Shown in pieces: positions 1-5,183 of a DNA stretch of 5,183 nt (position 1 is its first letter; every line of letters starts with the position of its first letter). The stretch covers positions 1-5,183 of the forward strand of contig MVZL01000092.1 of NCBI GenBank assembly GCA_002068375.1. The letters run 5' to 3'. A program made the translations under genes and the position numbers. The notes under the pieces were generated by a model, which saw only the letters and a program-made list of their open reading frames with translations, ran no database searches and was not told the DNA's origin. This DNA is from Tenericutes bacterium ADurb.BinA155. GTDB lineage: Bacteria; Bacillota_I; Bacilli_A; RFN20; CAG-826.

Positions 1-25
1 CACAACGTGAGGGATATTCACTAAC

Positions 26-577
26 ATGATCACCATCAGCATCCTTGGTCTCGACCAATTCGTCGTCGGACGTTATAGCAAGGACAATTCCGCCAACTTG
101 GCAAACCTTTTCGAATCCGATGAAAACCTGCTTAATTTCTACGCTCCGAACGCGATGGTCTTCCACCATGGCACCGAACAAACGAGCTGGAACACGATCG
201 TGATCGTGCGGGCTCCGATCAAATATAAACCCTGCGAAGGCAAGGTCGCGGAGTATCTCATGAAGACCCTCAGCGAGTTCTCGATCAACGTCGAAATTGA
301 GTTCGAATACTTCGAGCAATCGAGCCATTACGAGCACATCAATGATAGCTATCCCCGTTATATCGCAAGCGACAACATCGTCTCCACCGACGATATGCCG
401 GGCGAAGAGAACGAAGAAGACGAGGAGGAGGAAGCCGATCCGCGCGATCGGAGCGACCTCGATCCGAATGACCCCAATCAGATTTATCTTGGCAATGCCT
501 TTGAAGGCTTTGAAGATAAATTAGCCGCGAAGGAAAAAGAAAACGCGGCCAAGCCGAGCGATCCGAAAAAGAAATAA
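26..577 (+). CDS. Hypothetical protein with a small alpha/beta-like N-terminal domain and a highly acidic C-terminal tail
   Basis: I do not recognise this 183-residue protein with confidence. Residues 1-112 look like a compact folded domain. It has beta-like segments at 2-7, 57-64 and 87-96, helix-like stretches at 20-30 and 71-86, and an aromatic/His-rich end at 95-112 (YF, HYEH, YPRY). The pattern loosely recalls the DUF1904/tautomerase-like fold found in Bacilli, but there is no Pro after the initiator Met, so a tautomerase function is not supported. Residues 122-150 are strongly acidic, with a run of Glu/Asp at 127-138, and are probably disordered. Residues 152-172 could form a short helix (IYLGNAFEGFEDKL), and the protein ends in a Lys-rich tail (PKKK). 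No signal peptide or membrane segment is seen, so it is probably cytosolic. The ATG at 26 is preceded by GTGAGGG at 7-13, a plausible though somewhat distant ribosome-binding site. It lies 20 bases upstream of the RsmB-family gene and probably shares its transcript. Confidence 0.8.
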   Translation: MITISILGLDQFVVGRYSKDNSANLANLFESDENLLNFYAPNAMVFHHGTEQTSWNTIVIVRAPIKYKPCEGKVAEYLMKTLSEFSINVEIEFEYFEQSSHYEHINDSYPRYIASDNIVSTDDMPGEENEEDEEEEADPRDRSDLDPNDPNQIYLGNAFEGFEDKLAAKEKENAAKPSDPKKK

Positions 578-582
578 TCCCC

Positions 583-589
583 GAGGAGG
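583..589 (+). promoter_or_regulatory. Strong Shine-Dalgarno site for the RsmB-family gene
   Basis: GAGGAGG lies 8 bases before the ATG at 598, in the 20-base gap after the TAA at 575-577. It is the best ribosome-binding site in the window and fixes the start of the downstream gene. It argues that the RsmB-family protein is actively translated even though its catalytic motifs are degenerate. Confidence 0.85.
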
Positions 590-597
590 ATTAGCCC

Positions 598-1938
598 ATG
601 CAAGAACTGGATTTAGCGAGCGAGATTCTGATCGACATCAGCGGAAACGATGTCGAGTTCGCCGAGGCCCTGCGGAAGAAGTTCCAGGCCGATGTTTCGA
701 TCCGGCCGTTACGGAGCAACGTCGCGGGCTTAGTCGGATGCGAACTCCGCCATCACTTGCTTTTCACTTTCTTACTCAACCCGCTTGCCCCCGATTGGAC
801 GGCGGAAGAAAAATCCTATGCCGCCTTGGTCCTCGCCAATGAATATTTCTTCAAGCGTTATAAATCCGAGGACATCAAAGCCGCCCTCAAATTGAAGCTG
901 GGCGATGCGAAGTTCGCCTTGCTCGCCCCCTTATTCGAGAAGTCGGGCAAACCCGAAGAATATATTCCGGCCACGGTCGCCCGCAATAGCGATCAGTACC
1001 TTTCTCTTCGCTACAACACCCCGGAATGGGTTCTTAAGATCTGGGAGCACTATGGCTATGGCGCGACCTATCGGATTTTACGGAAGAACATCCGGCCCCT
1101 CGTTTCGTCCTTACGGGTCCGGACGGATCTCCTCAAGACCGAAGATCTCGTGAAGAATCCGGATTTTAAGCCGACCCCGGTGAGCGATCTCGTGACTTAT
1201 GTCGGCAAGACCCCGCTCCGCCGGCTCGATGAAGTGAAGCAGGGGAAGCTCTTCTTAGAAAAAGCCGCCCTCAAGAAAGTCCTCGACGAGTTCAAGATCA
1301 AAGAACCCTGCGAAGCCTTATGCTTCAATGGCAACGCCGATGACGCGATCTTAAAGGAATTCATCGTGAGCTATGGCTCATCGGTTGGCCTCAACCTTGG
1401 GGTCTATAACGTCGACAAGTACGTTGAAGTCTCGAAGCTCATCAAATCGCTTAATCTCCATAACATCAACTTCTATTCGGCCGAAGATCCTTTGGCGATG
1501 GATGCCGCGATCAGCCGGCCCCAGGACCTCGTGGTTGCCTGCCCCAATAGCTCGAACTTCGACCTCATCCGCGAATACCCCGACTATTTGATGCACTTCA
1601 AAAAGGATGGGATGGATTCGCTCTTCGCCAAAGAAAAGGCTTGCCTTGAAGGCTGCAGCAAATACGTGGCCGAAGGCGGAACCCTGATTTACATGATCTT
1701 CACGATCTCGCGGAAAGAAGGCCACCAGACCCTCGCCGAATTCGTCGAGCACCATTCCGAGTTCAAACTCGTTTCGGAGAGTCAGCTCTTCCCGTATGAG
1801 GATCTCGATACCGCGATGTACTATGCCGTCCTTAAAAAAGAACCGAAGCTCGCCAAAGTCACTCCGCCCCTAGCGGATTTAGCTAAGGCTAGCGTCCCGC
1901 AGGTCGCCGTTTCCGCCGAAGGGGCGGCGGCGAAGTAG
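598..1938 (+). CDS. rsmB: RsmB/Sun-family protein (NusB-like plus m5C-methyltransferase domains), apparently catalytically inactive
   Basis: RsmB normally methylates C967 of 16S rRNA using SAM. This 446-residue protein has the usual family length and layout. Residues 1-130 form a NusB-like helical region. Residues 137-176 carry the RsmB linker signature (SLRYNTPEWV, a YG pair, then N...P...LRV). A Rossmann-like domain spans about 215-415, and residues 430-446 are an Ala-rich tail. The catalytic motifs are altered. The motif I region (LCAAPGGKT in active enzymes) reads LCFNGNADDA at 241-250. The motif II acidic residue appears as Asn 271. Motif IV (DAPCSG) reads ACPNSS at 314-319, so the Cys is Asn 317 and the Asp is Ala 314. 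Motif VI (YSTCT) reads YMIFT at 365-369, so the nucleophile Cys is Phe 368. Surrounding anchors survive: PD at 328-329, EGG at 359-361 and FVEHHSEF at 382-389. Homology is clear from context and layout; loss of methylation is inferred. It sits directly before rlmN, as rsmB does in Bacillota. Confidence 0.82.
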   Translation: MQELDLASEILIDISGNDVEFAEALRKKFQADVSIRPLRSNVAGLVGCELRHHLLFTFLLNPLAPDWTAEEKSYAALVLANEYFFKRYKSEDIKAALKLKLGDAKFALLAPLFEKSGKPEEYIPATVARNSDQYLSLRYNTPEWVLKIWEHYGYGATYRILRKNIRPLVSSLRVRTDLLKTEDLVKNPDFKPTPVSDLVTYVGKTPLRRLDEVKQGKLFLEKAALKKVLDEFKIKEPCEALCFNGNADDAILKEFIVSYGSSVGLNLGVYNVDKYVEVSKLIKSLNLHNINFYSAEDPLAMDAAISRPQDLVVACPNSSNFDLIREYPDYLMHFKKDGMDSLFAKEKACLEGCSKYVAEGGTLIYMIFTISRKEGHQTLAEFVEHHSEFKLVSESQLFPYEDLDTAMYYAVLKKEPKLAKVTPPLADLAKASVPQVAVSAEGAAAK

Positions 1939-1943
1939 TTTCG

Positions 1944-3008
1944 ATGGAACAAGTCAATCTTTTAGGGTTTACTCTTTCTAAACTCACCGATGAAATGGTC
2001 GGTTTAGGCGAGAGTAAATATCGGGCGAAGCAGCTCTACAGTTGGCTCTACCAAAAACATGTCCTCGATTTCAACGCGATGAGCGATATCTCGAAGGGTT
2101 TTCGAACGATCTTGCTGCGGAACTATTGCCTCTACCTCCCAAGCGTCTTCAAACGCCAGGATAGCGAAGACGGCACGATCAAACTCCTGCTCCAGATGAG
2201 CGACGGGGCCAAAGTCGAAACCGTCCTCATGCGTTACAACTATGGCAACGTCATCTGCGTTTCCTCCGAAGTCGGCTGTAACATGGGCTGCGCCTTTTGC
2301 GCCTCGGGGCTTTTGAAGAAAGAACGGAACCTCACCGCCGCGGAAATGGTGGGGGAGGTCTTGGTGATGAACCAGCTCCTTTCTGAAGAAAAAGAAAACG
2401 TGACCCACATCGTCGTGATGGGGACCGGCGAGCCTTTCGATAACTACGATAACGTGATGGATTTCATCCGGATCATGAACGCCCAAGAAGGCTTAGCGAT
2501 CGGGGCGAGGCACATCACCGTCAGCACCTGCGGCCTCGTCGATGGGATCAAGAAATACGCGAAGGAAGGTCTTCAGATCAACCTCGCGATCTCCTTGCAC
2601 GCCCCCAATGACAAGATCCGCCAGCAAATCATGCCGATCGCGAAGGCTTATCCGCTCGATCAGCTGATGGAAGCGGTCCATTATTACGAAGAGAATGGCG
2701 GCCGCCGCGTCACCTTCGAATATATCATGCTGAAAGGCGTGAACGATTCTTTGGAATGCGCCGATGAACTCGCCAAACTCATCCGCGGAACCCTCGCTTA
2801 TGTGAATTTGATCCCGTATAACCCGGTGAAAGAAAAACCCTATGAGCGGAGCCCGGAGCCCCAAGTAAGGGCCTTTTGGGACCGCTTGATGAAGCAGGGG
2901 ATCAACACGACGATCCGCAAGGAATTCGGCACCGATATCGATGCGGCCTGCGGGCAGCTCCGGGTGAAATACGTTTTGCCCAAAAAGGATCCGGTAAGTA
3001 AGCCATGA
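1944..3008 (+). CDS. rlmN: Dual-specificity 23S rRNA A2503 / tRNA A37 C2-methyltransferase RlmN (radical SAM)
   Basis: RlmN uses radical SAM chemistry to add a methyl group to C2 of adenosine 2503 in 23S rRNA, and in many bacteria to A37 of some tRNAs. At 354 residues it has normal length. An N-terminal helical accessory region (about 1-75, with YRAKQLYSWLY at 26-36) is followed by the radical SAM barrel. The 4Fe-4S ligands are Cys 112, 116 and 119 in GCNMGCAFC. The two mechanistic cysteines are both present: Cys 105 in VICVSSEVGC and Cys 336 in DIDAACGQL, which match E. coli Cys 118 and Cys 355. The SAM-binding GTGEPFDNYDNV lies at 160-171, followed by HITVSTCGL (190-198), LAISLHAPND (214-223) and NLIPYNP (288-294). 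All residues needed for activity appear intact, in contrast to the upstream RsmB-family protein. The start lies 5 bases after the preceding stop and lacks a clear Shine-Dalgarno sequence, so translational coupling is likely. The 3' end overlaps the phosphatase start by 4 bases. Confidence 0.97.
   Translation: MEQVNLLGFTLSKLTDEMVGLGESKYRAKQLYSWLYQKHVLDFNAMSDISKGFRTILLRNYCLYLPSVFKRQDSEDGTIKLLLQMSDGAKVETVLMRYNYGNVICVSSEVGCNMGCAFCASGLLKKERNLTAAEMVGEVLVMNQLLSEEKENVTHIVVMGTGEPFDNYDNVMDFIRIMNAQEGLAIGARHITVSTCGLVDGIKKYAKEGLQINLAISLHAPNDKIRQQIMPIAKAYPLDQLMEAVHYYEENGGRRVTFEYIMLKGVNDSLECADELAKLIRGTLAYVNLIPYNPVKEKPYERSPEPQVRAFWDRLMKQGINTTIRKEFGTDIDAACGQLRVKYVLPKKDPVSKP
3005..3008 (+). other. ATGA start/stop overlap, rlmN to phosphatase
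   Basis: The phosphatase ATG at 3005 overlaps the rlmN TGA at 3006-3008. Only a weak AAGGA at 2985-2989, about 15 bases upstream, could serve as a ribosome-binding site. Initiation by re-use of terminating ribosomes is therefore likely. Confidence 0.85.
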
Positions 3009-3754
3009 AGCCCGTTTATAAAGGAACATACGCCTTTAAGACGGATATCGGGAAGGTCCGGGTCTCCAATGAAGACCAGGCCTATGTCCAACTCAATAGC
3101 GACGGCGAGGTCTTTTTGATCGTCTGCGATGGGATGGGCGGGCAGAACAAAGGCGACTACGCCAGCAAAATGGCGATCGACTCGATGCTCGATAGCTTCG
3201 CCCATAAGAATAGCCACGTCCCTTCCTTTTTACGGAAAACTTGGATCACCCAGGCCGTGAAGAAAGCCAATGGGATCATCTTCGATGAAGCCGATAAGAA
3301 TTCGGTCTATAAAGATATGGGAACGACCCTAGTGGCCGCTTGGATCGTGAAAGATAAGTTGGTCTTGGCCAATGTCGGCGATTCCCGTTGCTACGCCCTT
3401 AAAAACGATACGTTAGTCCGCCTTAGCGAAGACCAGACCTACGTCGATTTCCTTTATCGGACCGGGAAGATCAGCGAATCCCAGACCTTGTCCCACCCCG
3501 AACGCCACGTCCTCATGAATGCCCTTGGGATTTATCCCTCGGCTTCGGTCGACGTCAAAGTGATCCCTTACCATGGCGAGCCGATTTTGCTTTGCTCCGA
3601 CGGCCTCTACAACAACGTGGCCGAAAACGAGATCCGGAGCCTTATCTCCACCGATGAACGGGCCGATCAAAAGGCCTTATCCCTCATTAATGAAGCCAAC
3701 AATAACGGGGGCAGCGACAATATCGCCGTCGCCTATTGGGAGCCGCTCAAATGA
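3005..3754 (+). CDS. prpC: PP2C-type (PPM) serine/threonine protein phosphatase, PrpC/Stp family
   Basis: This metal-dependent phosphatase removes phosphate from Ser/Thr residues and normally counteracts the kinase encoded next to it. Its 249 residues match the length of bacterial PrpC/Stp/PstP enzymes. The PPM motifs appear in order: D14-I-G-K-V-R and SNEDQ (21-25); CDGMGG (41-46) with the metal-binding Asp 42; the MGTTLVAAW strand (105-113); LANVGDSRCYAL (121-132); LSEDQTYVDFL (140-150), leading into the flap; HVLMNALG (168-175); CSDGLYNNV (197-205) with the metal-binding Asp 199; and GGSDNIAVAYW (235-245) with Asp 238. All expected metal ligands are present, so the enzyme is probably active with Mn2+ or Mg2+. 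No membrane segment or signal is visible, so it should be cytosolic. It overlaps both neighbours by 4 bases (ATGA), giving tight co-expression with the kinase. Confidence 0.96.
   Translation: MKPVYKGTYAFKTDIGKVRVSNEDQAYVQLNSDGEVFLIVCDGMGGQNKGDYASKMAIDSMLDSFAHKNSHVPSFLRKTWITQAVKKANGIIFDEADKNSVYKDMGTTLVAAWIVKDKLVLANVGDSRCYALKNDTLVRLSEDQTYVDFLYRTGKISESQTLSHPERHVLMNALGIYPSASVDVKVIPYHGEPILLCSDGLYNNVAENEIRSLISTDERADQKALSLINEANNNGGSDNIAVAYWEPLK
3738..3742 (+). promoter_or_regulatory. Shine-Dalgarno site that favours the kinase start at 3751
   Basis: GGGAG, inside the last codons of the phosphatase gene, lies 8 bases before the ATG at 3751. A TTG at 3736 would give a protein five residues longer (MGAAQ added), but that start overlaps this site and has no good spacing of its own. 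The ATG at 3751 is the better choice. Confidence 0.65.
3751..3754 (+). other. ATGA start/stop overlap, phosphatase to kinase
   Basis: The kinase ATG at 3751 overlaps the phosphatase TGA at 3752-3754. This repeats the junction type seen at 3005 and 4623 and supports both the chosen kinase start and coupled translation of the phosphatase/kinase pair. Confidence 0.85.
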
Positions 3755-4626
3755 TCAAGATCGGCGATCATATCGACGGGCGTTACCGCATCACCTCGCG
3801 GATCGCGACCGGAGGGATGGCCGATGTCTATGAGGCCAATGATTTGATCGGGCACCGCGTGGTGTCCTTAAAAATCATGCGGGAAGATCTTTTAAGCGAC
3901 CCGAAGAATCTGGAGCGTTTCGAGAATGAATGCGCGGCCGCGGCCTCGCTCAATAACCCCAATATCGTGAAGGTCTATGGCCGGGGAATGGTGGAAGGCC
4001 GGCCTTATATGGCTAACGAGTACATCAAAGGCCAAACCCTGCGCGACAAGCTCAATTTCACTTTGTCCCTTTCCGTTTCCGATGCCTGCGAAGTGATGCT
4101 TCAGCTCACGTCGGGGATCGATTACATCCATAAACACGGGATCATCCATCGCGACATCAAACCCGATAACCTCTTTTATATGTCCGATGGCACCCTCAAG
4201 ATCACCGACTTTGGGATCGCGACGCCAGCCGGGGCTCCTCAGCCTGACGACGACTCGATCCAAGGGACGGTCTACTATTGCGCGCCCGAAATCCTCACCG
4301 GGGCGCCCGCTGGCGTCCAAAGCGACATCTATTCGATGGGGATCGTCTTCTTTGAAATCCTGACCGGCCAAGTTCCTTTCGATGGCCAAACCCCAGCCGA
4401 AGTGGCGTTAAAGCAGATCAAAAAGCATTTCCCGGAGCCGAGTAAGATCGTCCCGAGCATTCCTCATTCGATCGATAAAATCATCATCAAAGCCTGCCGG
4501 AAATCGCCGGAAGAGCGTTATCAAAACGCGATGGAAATGCATGAGGCCCTCGTCCAAGCGATGGGCGATAAAGAAAACTTTAAGGAGCATAAGACCTTGC
4601 TCAGCAAGATCTTTGGATTCAAATGA
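3751..4626 (+). CDS. Hanks-type serine/threonine protein kinase, PrkC/PknB-like catalytic domain only
   Basis: This kinase transfers phosphate from ATP to Ser/Thr of target proteins and is paired with the upstream PP2C phosphatase. From the ATG at 3751 it has 291 residues. Visible kinase elements are the glycine loop IATGGMADVY (18-27), Lys 41 in SLKIM, the alpha-C Glu 60 in RFENE, HRDIKPDN (133-140) with catalytic Asp 135 plus Lys 137 and Asn 140, DFG (153-155), GTVYYCAPE (172-180), SDIYSMG (191-197) and the late-lobe Arg in PEERYQNA (253-260). All catalytic residues are present, so activity is expected. It ends soon after the kinase fold with KIFGFK. There is no transmembrane segment and there are no PASTA repeats, whereas walled Bacillota PrkC is roughly twice this size and membrane-anchored. 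It is probably soluble and would not sense muropeptides. The activation loop lacks the Thr cluster common in PrkC and instead carries PDDDS at 165-169. Its start and stop overlap the neighbours by 4 bases each. Confidence 0.95.
   Translation: MIKIGDHIDGRYRITSRIATGGMADVYEANDLIGHRVVSLKIMREDLLSDPKNLERFENECAAAASLNNPNIVKVYGRGMVEGRPYMANEYIKGQTLRDKLNFTLSLSVSDACEVMLQLTSGIDYIHKHGIIHRDIKPDNLFYMSDGTLKITDFGIATPAGAPQPDDDSIQGTVYYCAPEILTGAPAGVQSDIYSMGIVFFEILTGQVPFDGQTPAEVALKQIKKHFPEPSKIVPSIPHSIDKIIIKACRKSPEERYQNAMEMHEALVQAMGDKENFKEHKTLLSKIFGFK
4623..4626 (+). other. ATGA start/stop overlap, kinase to epimerase
   Basis: The epimerase ATG at 4623 overlaps the kinase TGA at 4624-4626. No strong ribosome-binding site precedes it, so coupled translation is likely. 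In Bacillus rsgA lies between these two genes; here there is no room for it. Confidence 0.85.
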
Positions 4627-5183
4627 AACCGATCATCGTTGCCCCGAGTATTTTGTCGGCCGATAAGACGAAGATCGTTTCCGAGATCTTAAAAGCGGAA
4701 GCAGCCGGCGCCCAATTTATCCATATCGATATCATGGATGGCTTATTTGTTCCGAATACGTCCTTATCGCTCGATTTCGTTAAGCAGATCCACGACCAGC
4801 ATGAACTAGTGAATGATGTCCATATCATGGTGGCCAATCCGCTCGACCTTGGACCCGCCTACGCCAAAGCCGGAGCCGACATCGTCACCTTCCATTACGA
4901 AGCCCTAATCGACGATGAGACTCGGAAGCTTTGCATCGAGAAAATCAAAAAGGCCGGGGCCAAAGTGGGGATGTCGGTGAAACCTAATACCTCTCCCACG
5001 GTTCTTTTTCCTTTCTTAAAGCAGCTCGACCTCGTCCTCGTGATGTCGGTGGAGCCGGGTAAAGGTGGCCAAGCCTTTATGCCGAACGCCTTAGATAAAA
5101 TTAAAGTGTTACGGGAAGCGATCGATGAACGGCATCTCCGGACCCTCCTCGAAGTCGATGGAGGTATTAACGCCGAGACGGGG
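4623..5183 (+). CDS. rpe: Ribulose-phosphate 3-epimerase, 3' end cut by the window
   Basis: Rpe interconverts D-ribulose 5-phosphate and D-xylulose 5-phosphate in the pentose phosphate pathway, using a TIM barrel and a divalent metal. The 187 codons seen are open to the last base; the family is usually about 215-225 residues, so roughly 30-35 residues are missing. Motifs include APSILSAD (7-14), FIHIDIMDGLFVPN (32-45) with His 34 and catalytic Asp 36, DVHIMV (65-70) with His 67, TFHYEA (89-94), MSVEPGKGGQAF (141-152) and EVDGGI (177-182) with the second catalytic Asp 179. The metal ligands and both acid/base Asp residues are present, so activity is expected. Small departures are SLSL at 47-50, where many homologues have a Phe-Gly-Pro-containing segment, and Lys 147, where PGFGGQ is the usual form. 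It is the sixth gene of the cluster, and its position after the kinase agrees with Bacillota gene order apart from the missing rsgA. Confidence 0.96.
   Translation, partial: MKPIIVAPSILSADKTKIVSEILKAEAAGAQFIHIDIMDGLFVPNTSLSLDFVKQIHDQHELVNDVHIMVANPLDLGPAYAKAGADIVTFHYEALIDDETRKLCIEKIKKAGAKVGMSVKPNTSPTVLFPFLKQLDLVLVMSVEPGKGGQAFMPNALDKIKVLREAIDERHLRTLLEVDGGINAETG

Follow-up and report, generated by a model that had tools for sequence, protein, structure and literature searches.

RsmB (Fmu/Sun; PDB 1sqf and 1sqg), the methyltransferase that makes 5-methylcytosine (m5C) at C967 of 16S rRNA, is the closest described relative of the gene considered here. Escherichia coli without rsmB is reported to accumulate 17S rRNA, with RsmB acting ahead of S19 joining (PMC7056703). 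In the same m5C methyltransferase family, catalytically dead NOP2 is reported to rescue rRNA processing (PMC9561284), and the assembly role of NSUN4-MTERF4 is described as separate from methylation (PMC3916286). Both eukaryotic proteins, NOP2/NSUN1 and NSUN4, keep their catalytic site and are bifunctional. METTL15 belongs to a different enzyme family, is naturally active and makes N4-methylcytosine rather than m5C; its likeness lies in being a small-subunit rRNA methyltransferase with a chaperone-like role. For this 12S rRNA methyltransferase the protein, and not its activity, is reported to be required for small-subunit assembly (PMC11197891). RsmB itself is described as lost outright in several Mollicutes groups, for example Acholeplasma/Anaeroplasma/Phytoplasma (PMC4014445). 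For rRNA methyltransferases in general it is still open whether the methyl group is what counts or the protein being there during assembly. Here we analyse a 5,183-nucleotide stretch from Tenericutes bacterium ADurb.BinA155 (assembly GCA_002068375.1, contig MVZL01000092.1, positions 1 to 5,183; hereafter the window), in which a gene of 446 codons encodes what is very probably an RsmB-derived pseudoenzyme retained by selection. Unlike the Mollicutes groups, its lineage kept the protein, and unlike NOP2/NSUN1 and NSUN4, the window protein has naturally lost its site. This loss is common to most of an order of Bacilli, which we take to be RFN20 in GTDB, with the RsmB fold and the place of the gene kept.

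By sequence the product is a very remote RsmB. It is only 14-15% identical to the E. coli enzyme and stays below the cut-offs of both RsmB equivalogs (58.4 bits against NCBIfam PRK14902, cut-off 319; 25.8 bits against TIGR00563, cut-off 269.05) and of the Pfam RsmB/F model (14.6 bits, cut-off 27). Profile-profile alignment matched it to RsmB with a probability of 99.9 (E 1.5e-34) over 402 columns, and the best solved structures for the predicted model were 1sqf and 1sqg, both E. coli RsmB. A NusB-like domain, a middle domain and a Rossmann m5C-methyltransferase fold follow one another in the model, and the kinship thus spans the whole length, as the initial annotation of the window, made from its letters alone, had proposed when it assigned the gene to the RsmB family with the NusB-like region included. 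The intact frame, the ribosome-binding site and the position before rlmN that it described are likewise present (Table 1). The Rossmann core is common to RsmF, of the m5C1407 family (2frx and 3m6w were matched), from which the window protein is set apart: the 12 RsmF-type genes of related genomes that we aligned have no NusB-like domain, carry a C-terminal extension and keep DAPCS and STCS motifs intact, a description that the window protein does not fit.

We next compared the catalytic site in a MAFFT alignment of the window protein, E. coli RsmB (from the MG1655 record) and nine canonical RsmB genes of this order of Bacilli. Motif IV (RILLDAPCSATGVIRRHPD against LVVACPNSSNFDLIREYPD) and motif VI (YATCSV against YMIFTI) aligned without gaps, which places Cys325 of E. 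coli RsmB on Ser318 and the nucleophile Cys375 on Phe368, and profile-profile alignment by hhalign gave the same pairs. The initial annotation was therefore right about the loss of the motif VI cysteine at Phe368; it was also right that the motif IV cysteine is lost, the residue it named, Asn317, being one position too early. Its claim on motif I holds as well, since CAAPGGK is gone and N246-A247-D248 lies in the region. The QD of motif X is replaced by Glu221-Lys222, and D-x-P-C is absent; the predicted structure keeps the RsmB fold without the S-adenosylmethionine (SAM) motifs I and X. Both cysteine columns hold Cys in 10/10 canonical genes. The columns were also counted in 125 non-canonical open reading frames (ORFs), window included, all longer than 300 aa and with RsmF-type cross-hits removed. 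The nucleophile column is Cys in 0/125; the motif IV column holds Ser in 94 ORFs, Asn in 21 and Cys in 4, with another residue or X in the remaining 6, and none of the 125 carries both catalytic cysteines together. The orthologues thus share the loss of the catalytic site, and the protein is probably devoid of methyltransferase activity.

To place this family we used a sample of 279 species genomes from the order and one of 395 genomes from the class. The initial protein search gave 196 proteins including the query, of which 120 are listed (the others 48-81% identical); their source names are in part RsmB/RsmF methylases and in part hypothetical proteins of Bacilli metagenome-assembled genomes. 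A genome scan with the single protein found no loci and one with the family alignment found 57. Two loci titled Candidatus Alloenteromonas (L043 and L048) are relatives, the genome of L048 being in the order. The family profile matched 242 of the 279 order genomes (E ≤ 1e-5), and the RsmB equivalog was above cut-off in 8/279, with a ninth, G279, reaching 301 bits. Subtracting the 9 canonical genes leaves a family of about 230, of which the 125 ORFs were read; inspection stopped short of some of the weakest matches. In the class sample an RsmB above cut-off was found in 130/395 genomes, of which the order contributed a single one (G277); every listed match that scored above 92 bits with the pseudo-RsmB profile was from the order, and the first outsider (G563, 91.8 bits) itself has an over-cut-off canonical RsmB. 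RsmB genes of the class outgroup show [ST]TC[ST] in 18/18 and the simple D-x-P-C pattern in 16/18. Some sources label genes of the pseudo-RsmB kind '16S rRNA C967 or C1407 C5-methylase', and m5C967 is therefore possibly mispredicted for the roughly 230 family-matching genomes.

The place of the gene is the same in both kinds. Across 136 RsmB-type loci, rlmN lies directly 3' on the same strand in 120 by rule and in 9 more with an overlap of more than 60 bases from a mechanical start; one locus (L117, in pieces) is unclear and 6 have no room. Canonical RsmB precedes rlmN in 8/8 loci with room and the non-canonical form in 121/122, which supports orthology and loss of activity in place rather than a new arrival.

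The gene is also under purifying selection. Ratios of nonsynonymous to synonymous substitution rates (dN/dS, Nei-Gojobori) were calculated for 55 pairs above 72% identity, of which 53 had a finite dS and two were saturated. They ran from 0.026 to 0.305 with a median of 0.085, 47 being at or below 0.148; the pairs are not independent, one rumen cluster supplying many, and the top value involves the fused or cut ORFs L042/L050. A fast lineage (L153-L155) gave equally low values of 0.060-0.081. The neighbouring rlmN had the lower ratio in 43/48 comparable pairs (median 0.042), which indicates that the constraint on pseudo-RsmB is real and about half as strict. Taking RlmN identity as a clock, we compared rates within the window clade as defined by the RlmN tree, which puts the window with 43 other rows in a clade of 44 (SH-like approximate likelihood ratio test, SH-aLRT, 99). 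For RlmN identity bins of 0.55-0.65, 0.65-0.75, 0.75-0.85 and 0.85-0.95, RsmB-type identity averaged 0.436, 0.478, 0.595 and 0.754 in the window clade (50 loci) and 0.206, 0.247, 0.358 and 0.507 in the other non-canonical lineages (66 loci); canonical pairs (7 loci) gave 0.421, 0.508 and 0.752 in the first, second and fourth bins (13, 4 and 1 pairs) and none in the third. Set against this small canonical sample, the dead enzyme of the window clade is about as constrained as live RsmB. The dN/dS check that the initial annotation had called for thus speaks for selection.

The history of the loss can be read in part from what remains of the site. Remnants of motif X occur in L118 (MMDESNQ) and L133 (VEDEAEQ) in the MAFFT alignment, and some lineages keep a motif IV remnant, SS-x-x-G-x-x-R; others have no remnant, and the nucleophile is found in none. 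This distribution suggests that the nucleophile was probably lost first and that the SAM site eroded afterwards in parallel. In an RlmN tree without an outgroup (118 rows after removing 10 near-duplicates and frames below 330 aa), the canonical rows lie on one side of a branch, giving 1 change (SH-aLRT 97). A quick search with an outgroup gave 2 changes, and 3 once four long rows had been removed. A tree holding all non-canonical and gene-lost rows as one clade has a log-likelihood 41.7 above the free tree (approximately unbiased test, p-AU 0.82), so that a single catalytic loss is favoured, not proven. Loss of the pseudo-RsmB gene itself takes 3 changes on the RlmN tree, at least 2 of them forced by starred branches.

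Taken together, the shared loss of catalytic residues, the purifying selection across species and an RsmB fold without SAM motifs support the suggestion of the initial annotation that the protein is kept for a non-catalytic role and is not decaying. On balance, we favour a model in which the gene encodes a pseudo-methyltransferase derived from RsmB, its activity lost once, that acts as a scaffold promoting 30S assembly at helix 31 without methylation. A single loss event would have removed methylation and left the scaffold; this scaffold would go on engaging an early intermediate of the 30S subunit in the region of helix 31, or some partner at that place, and promote assembly with C967 left unmethylated; and new invariant residues such as GCELRH may mark a binding surface remade in the window clade. 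Once a retained pseudoenzyme is granted, 30S assembly would be a fairly probable role for it, and the best outside support comes from the reported behaviour of E. coli without rsmB, dead NOP2 and NSUN4-MTERF4 (PMC7056703, PMC9561284, PMC3916286). Among the open-licence PMC papers listed by our searches we saw no report of an inactive RsmB family, judged by titles and the starts of abstracts. A lineage that gave up the chemistry yet held on to the protein over most of an order makes the question of methyl group or protein testable by comparison.

Several observations weigh against this model. Outside the window clade, divergence is about twice that of canonical RsmB for a given RlmN divergence, and the canonical comparison rests on a small sample of 7 loci and 18 pairs. 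The gene has been cleanly deleted between the DUF1904-like gene described below and rlmN in 12 inspected loci (L219-L230), and so is dispensable in some relatives. In the NusB-like part mean net charge is -2.9 (window -1) against +5.1 for canonical RsmB, and in the methyltransferase-like part it is -7.8 (window -10) against -1.1, because of which RNA binding is not obvious; the middle part is the only one to have turned more basic (-0.8 to +4.4; window +5).

The changed charge of all three parts counts in favour of a rival reading, a retained pseudoenzyme whose job is unrelated to 30S assembly, its scaffold re-used either as a regulator or to bind some other partner, RNA or protein. We consider this doubtful, if the best of the alternatives. 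In its favour, G47, C48, L50, R51 and H52 of GCELRH are identical in 120/120 listed members, window included, and the motif is absent from canonical RsmB. C48, in the NusB-like part, is the only invariant Cys of these 120; across all non-canonical ORFs it is kept in 60%, and canonical RsmB has G at the same column. Moreover, the 17S and helix 31 role is established only for active RsmB. Against it stand the same operon place before rlmN and the same overall fold, NusB-like part included, and no partner could be named. Within the strongly conserved middle-domain motif LRYNTPEWVLKIW, P142 and K147 are common to active RsmB. Two members, P0035 and P0038, are 638 and 645 aa long, with a long C-terminal extension rich in Ala, Pro, Glu and Lys.

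A decaying relic, deprived first of catalysis and by drift now on its way to disappearing, is improbable. The graded erosion of motifs X and IV, the fast divergence outside the window clade and the 12 clean deletions are what such drift would leave, but the low dN/dS values, those of L153-L155 among them, and a window clade constrained like canonical RsmB and with invariant residues of its own argue against it.

Very improbable is a protein that is still an enzyme, with other residues or another cofactor. Residues at or near the old site are conserved in the 120 listed members (Ser318 in 117/120, T369 and E374 in 120/120 each; position 368 is Tyr in 92 and Phe in the window protein), and the motif IV Cys occurs in four scattered ORFs of the 125 (L047, L172, L174 and L177), the window not among them. 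The nucleophile column, however, is never Cys, motifs I and X are gone in the window clade, and no Cys is found at 316-319 or 367-369 in any of the 120, window protein included. Their methyltransferase-like region has no conserved Cys, with 19/120 lacking Cys there altogether; the cysteines that the initial annotation had put forward as possible replacements occur in 13 (position 315), 1 (position 349) and 50 (position 353) of the 120, and so none is conserved. Finally, a NusB-like domain that took over the transcription antitermination role of NusB is barely credible and was rejected: the N-terminal part is NusB-like by alignment to E. coli RsmB, but a stand-alone NusB homologue (a frame of 134-217 aa) is present in 44/44 genomes, pseudo-RsmB genomes included, with 3 passing the 88.35-bit cut-off and the rest at 60-87 bits.

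The methylation target still exists in the order. A helix 31 pattern that left 965-968 free matched 50/279 genomes (genomes with other nearby changes or unassembled 16S are missed), and both C967 and the adjacent G966 are retained in 51/51 matches from these 50 genomes; loss of the target base was thus not seen. At base 968, 36 of the 51 have U and 15 have A, and the two canonical-RsmB genomes among the matches, G276 and G279, both have A. We also looked for a second intact gene, as the initial annotation had suggested. A strong RsmB/F-family gene (137-175 bits, no stops) is present elsewhere in 21/22 pseudo-RsmB genomes, G016 having none. E. coli RsmB matched all 20 that were fetched. Alignment of 12 showed them to be of the RsmF type, with no second RsmB among them; methylating capacity of the RsmF kind therefore persists. 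Seven genomes outside the window clade (L088-L090, L092, L094-L096) have an extra RsmB/F-family member of about 300 aa (172-207 bits with the canonical RsmB profile), which could supply m5C in those species.

RsgA (TIGR00157) was detected in 17/33 genomes tested and not in the other 16, many of the genomes being metagenome-assembled, so that single absences are weak. It was not detected in any of 13 window-clade genomes, 10 of them assigned from the RlmN tree, directly or as near-copies of rows placed in it, and 3 by profile score only. More tentatively, most of the order may have abandoned m5C967 once and kept the writer as a dedicated, non-enzymatic 30S biogenesis factor, with pseudo-RsmB in the RsgA-less window clade back under enzyme-grade constraint, equipped with new invariant motifs and recruited to an important assembly role. 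If so, nature would have split the scaffold function of a widespread rRNA methyltransferase from its catalytic one. A general compensation for RsgA was rejected, since RsgA is also undetected in G068 and G145, which have pseudo-RsmB of the fast kind (112-114 bits), and in G205, where pseudo-RsmB is deleted. Many relatives have an ORF of rsgA size between pknB and rpe, which the window lacks (4620-4626).

The gene upstream of pseudo-RsmB in the window encodes a protein with 4m1a as its best PDB match and a conserved C-terminal GNxFEGFE-like motif. Among 127 non-canonical loci this DUF1904-like gene is adjacent in 108, placed otherwise in 6 (by rule) and not seen in 13 (8 without room), and it was found in 0/9 canonical loci. 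Genome-wide it is present in 26/26 pseudo-RsmB genomes tested, in 0/9 canonical genomes of the order and in 0/7 of the class, and in 17/24 order genomes without a pseudo-RsmB profile match (one, G272, weak). It was rejected as an obligate partner of pseudo-RsmB, since it is kept before rlmN in all 12 inspected loci with the deletion and, in several deep lineages, lies away from pseudo-RsmB beside a gene of about 730 aa that resembles priA in size and position; common descent within one clade accounts for the co-occurrence. In L042 (2-1987) it forms one continuous frame with pseudo-RsmB, unlike in the relatives L039 and L050, through either a fusion or an assembly error.

The genes of the window are all forward and tightly packed.

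Table 1. Features of the window, with positions counted from its first nucleotide
Feature	Position	Strand	Basis
DUF1904-like upstream conserved ORF; DUF1904/tautomerase-superfamily fold, acidic tail	26..577	+	context gene
Shine-Dalgarno-like GAGGAGGA; ATG 7 bases further on	583..590	+	read from sequence
Pseudo-RsmB coding sequence, 446 aa, no interruption	598..1938	+	ORF list, family searches, predicted structure, profile-profile alignment
NusB-like N-terminal domain, residues 1-118; helical in model; boundary approximate, by eye	598..951	+	model, structure match, profile-profile alignment
GCELRH motif, residues 47-52	736..753	+	family alignment
Middle-domain motif LRYNTPEWVLKIW, residues 137-149	1006..1044	+	family alignment
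Rossmann methyltransferase-like domain without SAM motifs, residues 223-415	1264..1842	+	model, structure match, alignments
N246-A247-D248, region of lost motif I (AAPGGK)	1333..1341	+	MAFFT and column counts
Codon of Ser318, which corresponds to Cys325 of E. coli RsmB (motif IV)	1549..1551	+	MAFFT, hhalign
Codon of Phe368, which corresponds to the nucleophile Cys375 of E. coli RsmB (motif VI)	1699..1701	+	MAFFT, hhalign
C-terminal tail, residues 420-446, low model confidence, probably disordered	1855..1935	+	predicted structure
rlmN, conserved downstream neighbour	1944..3008	+	TIGR00048, 421 bits
PP2C phosphatase	3005..3754	+	
PknB-like kinase	3751..4626	+	
rpe	from 4623	+	

Of the 563 positions of the PASTA kinase model, the PknB-like kinase matches just 2-273 and scores below the cut-off; it appears to consist of the kinase domain alone, with no PASTA domains.
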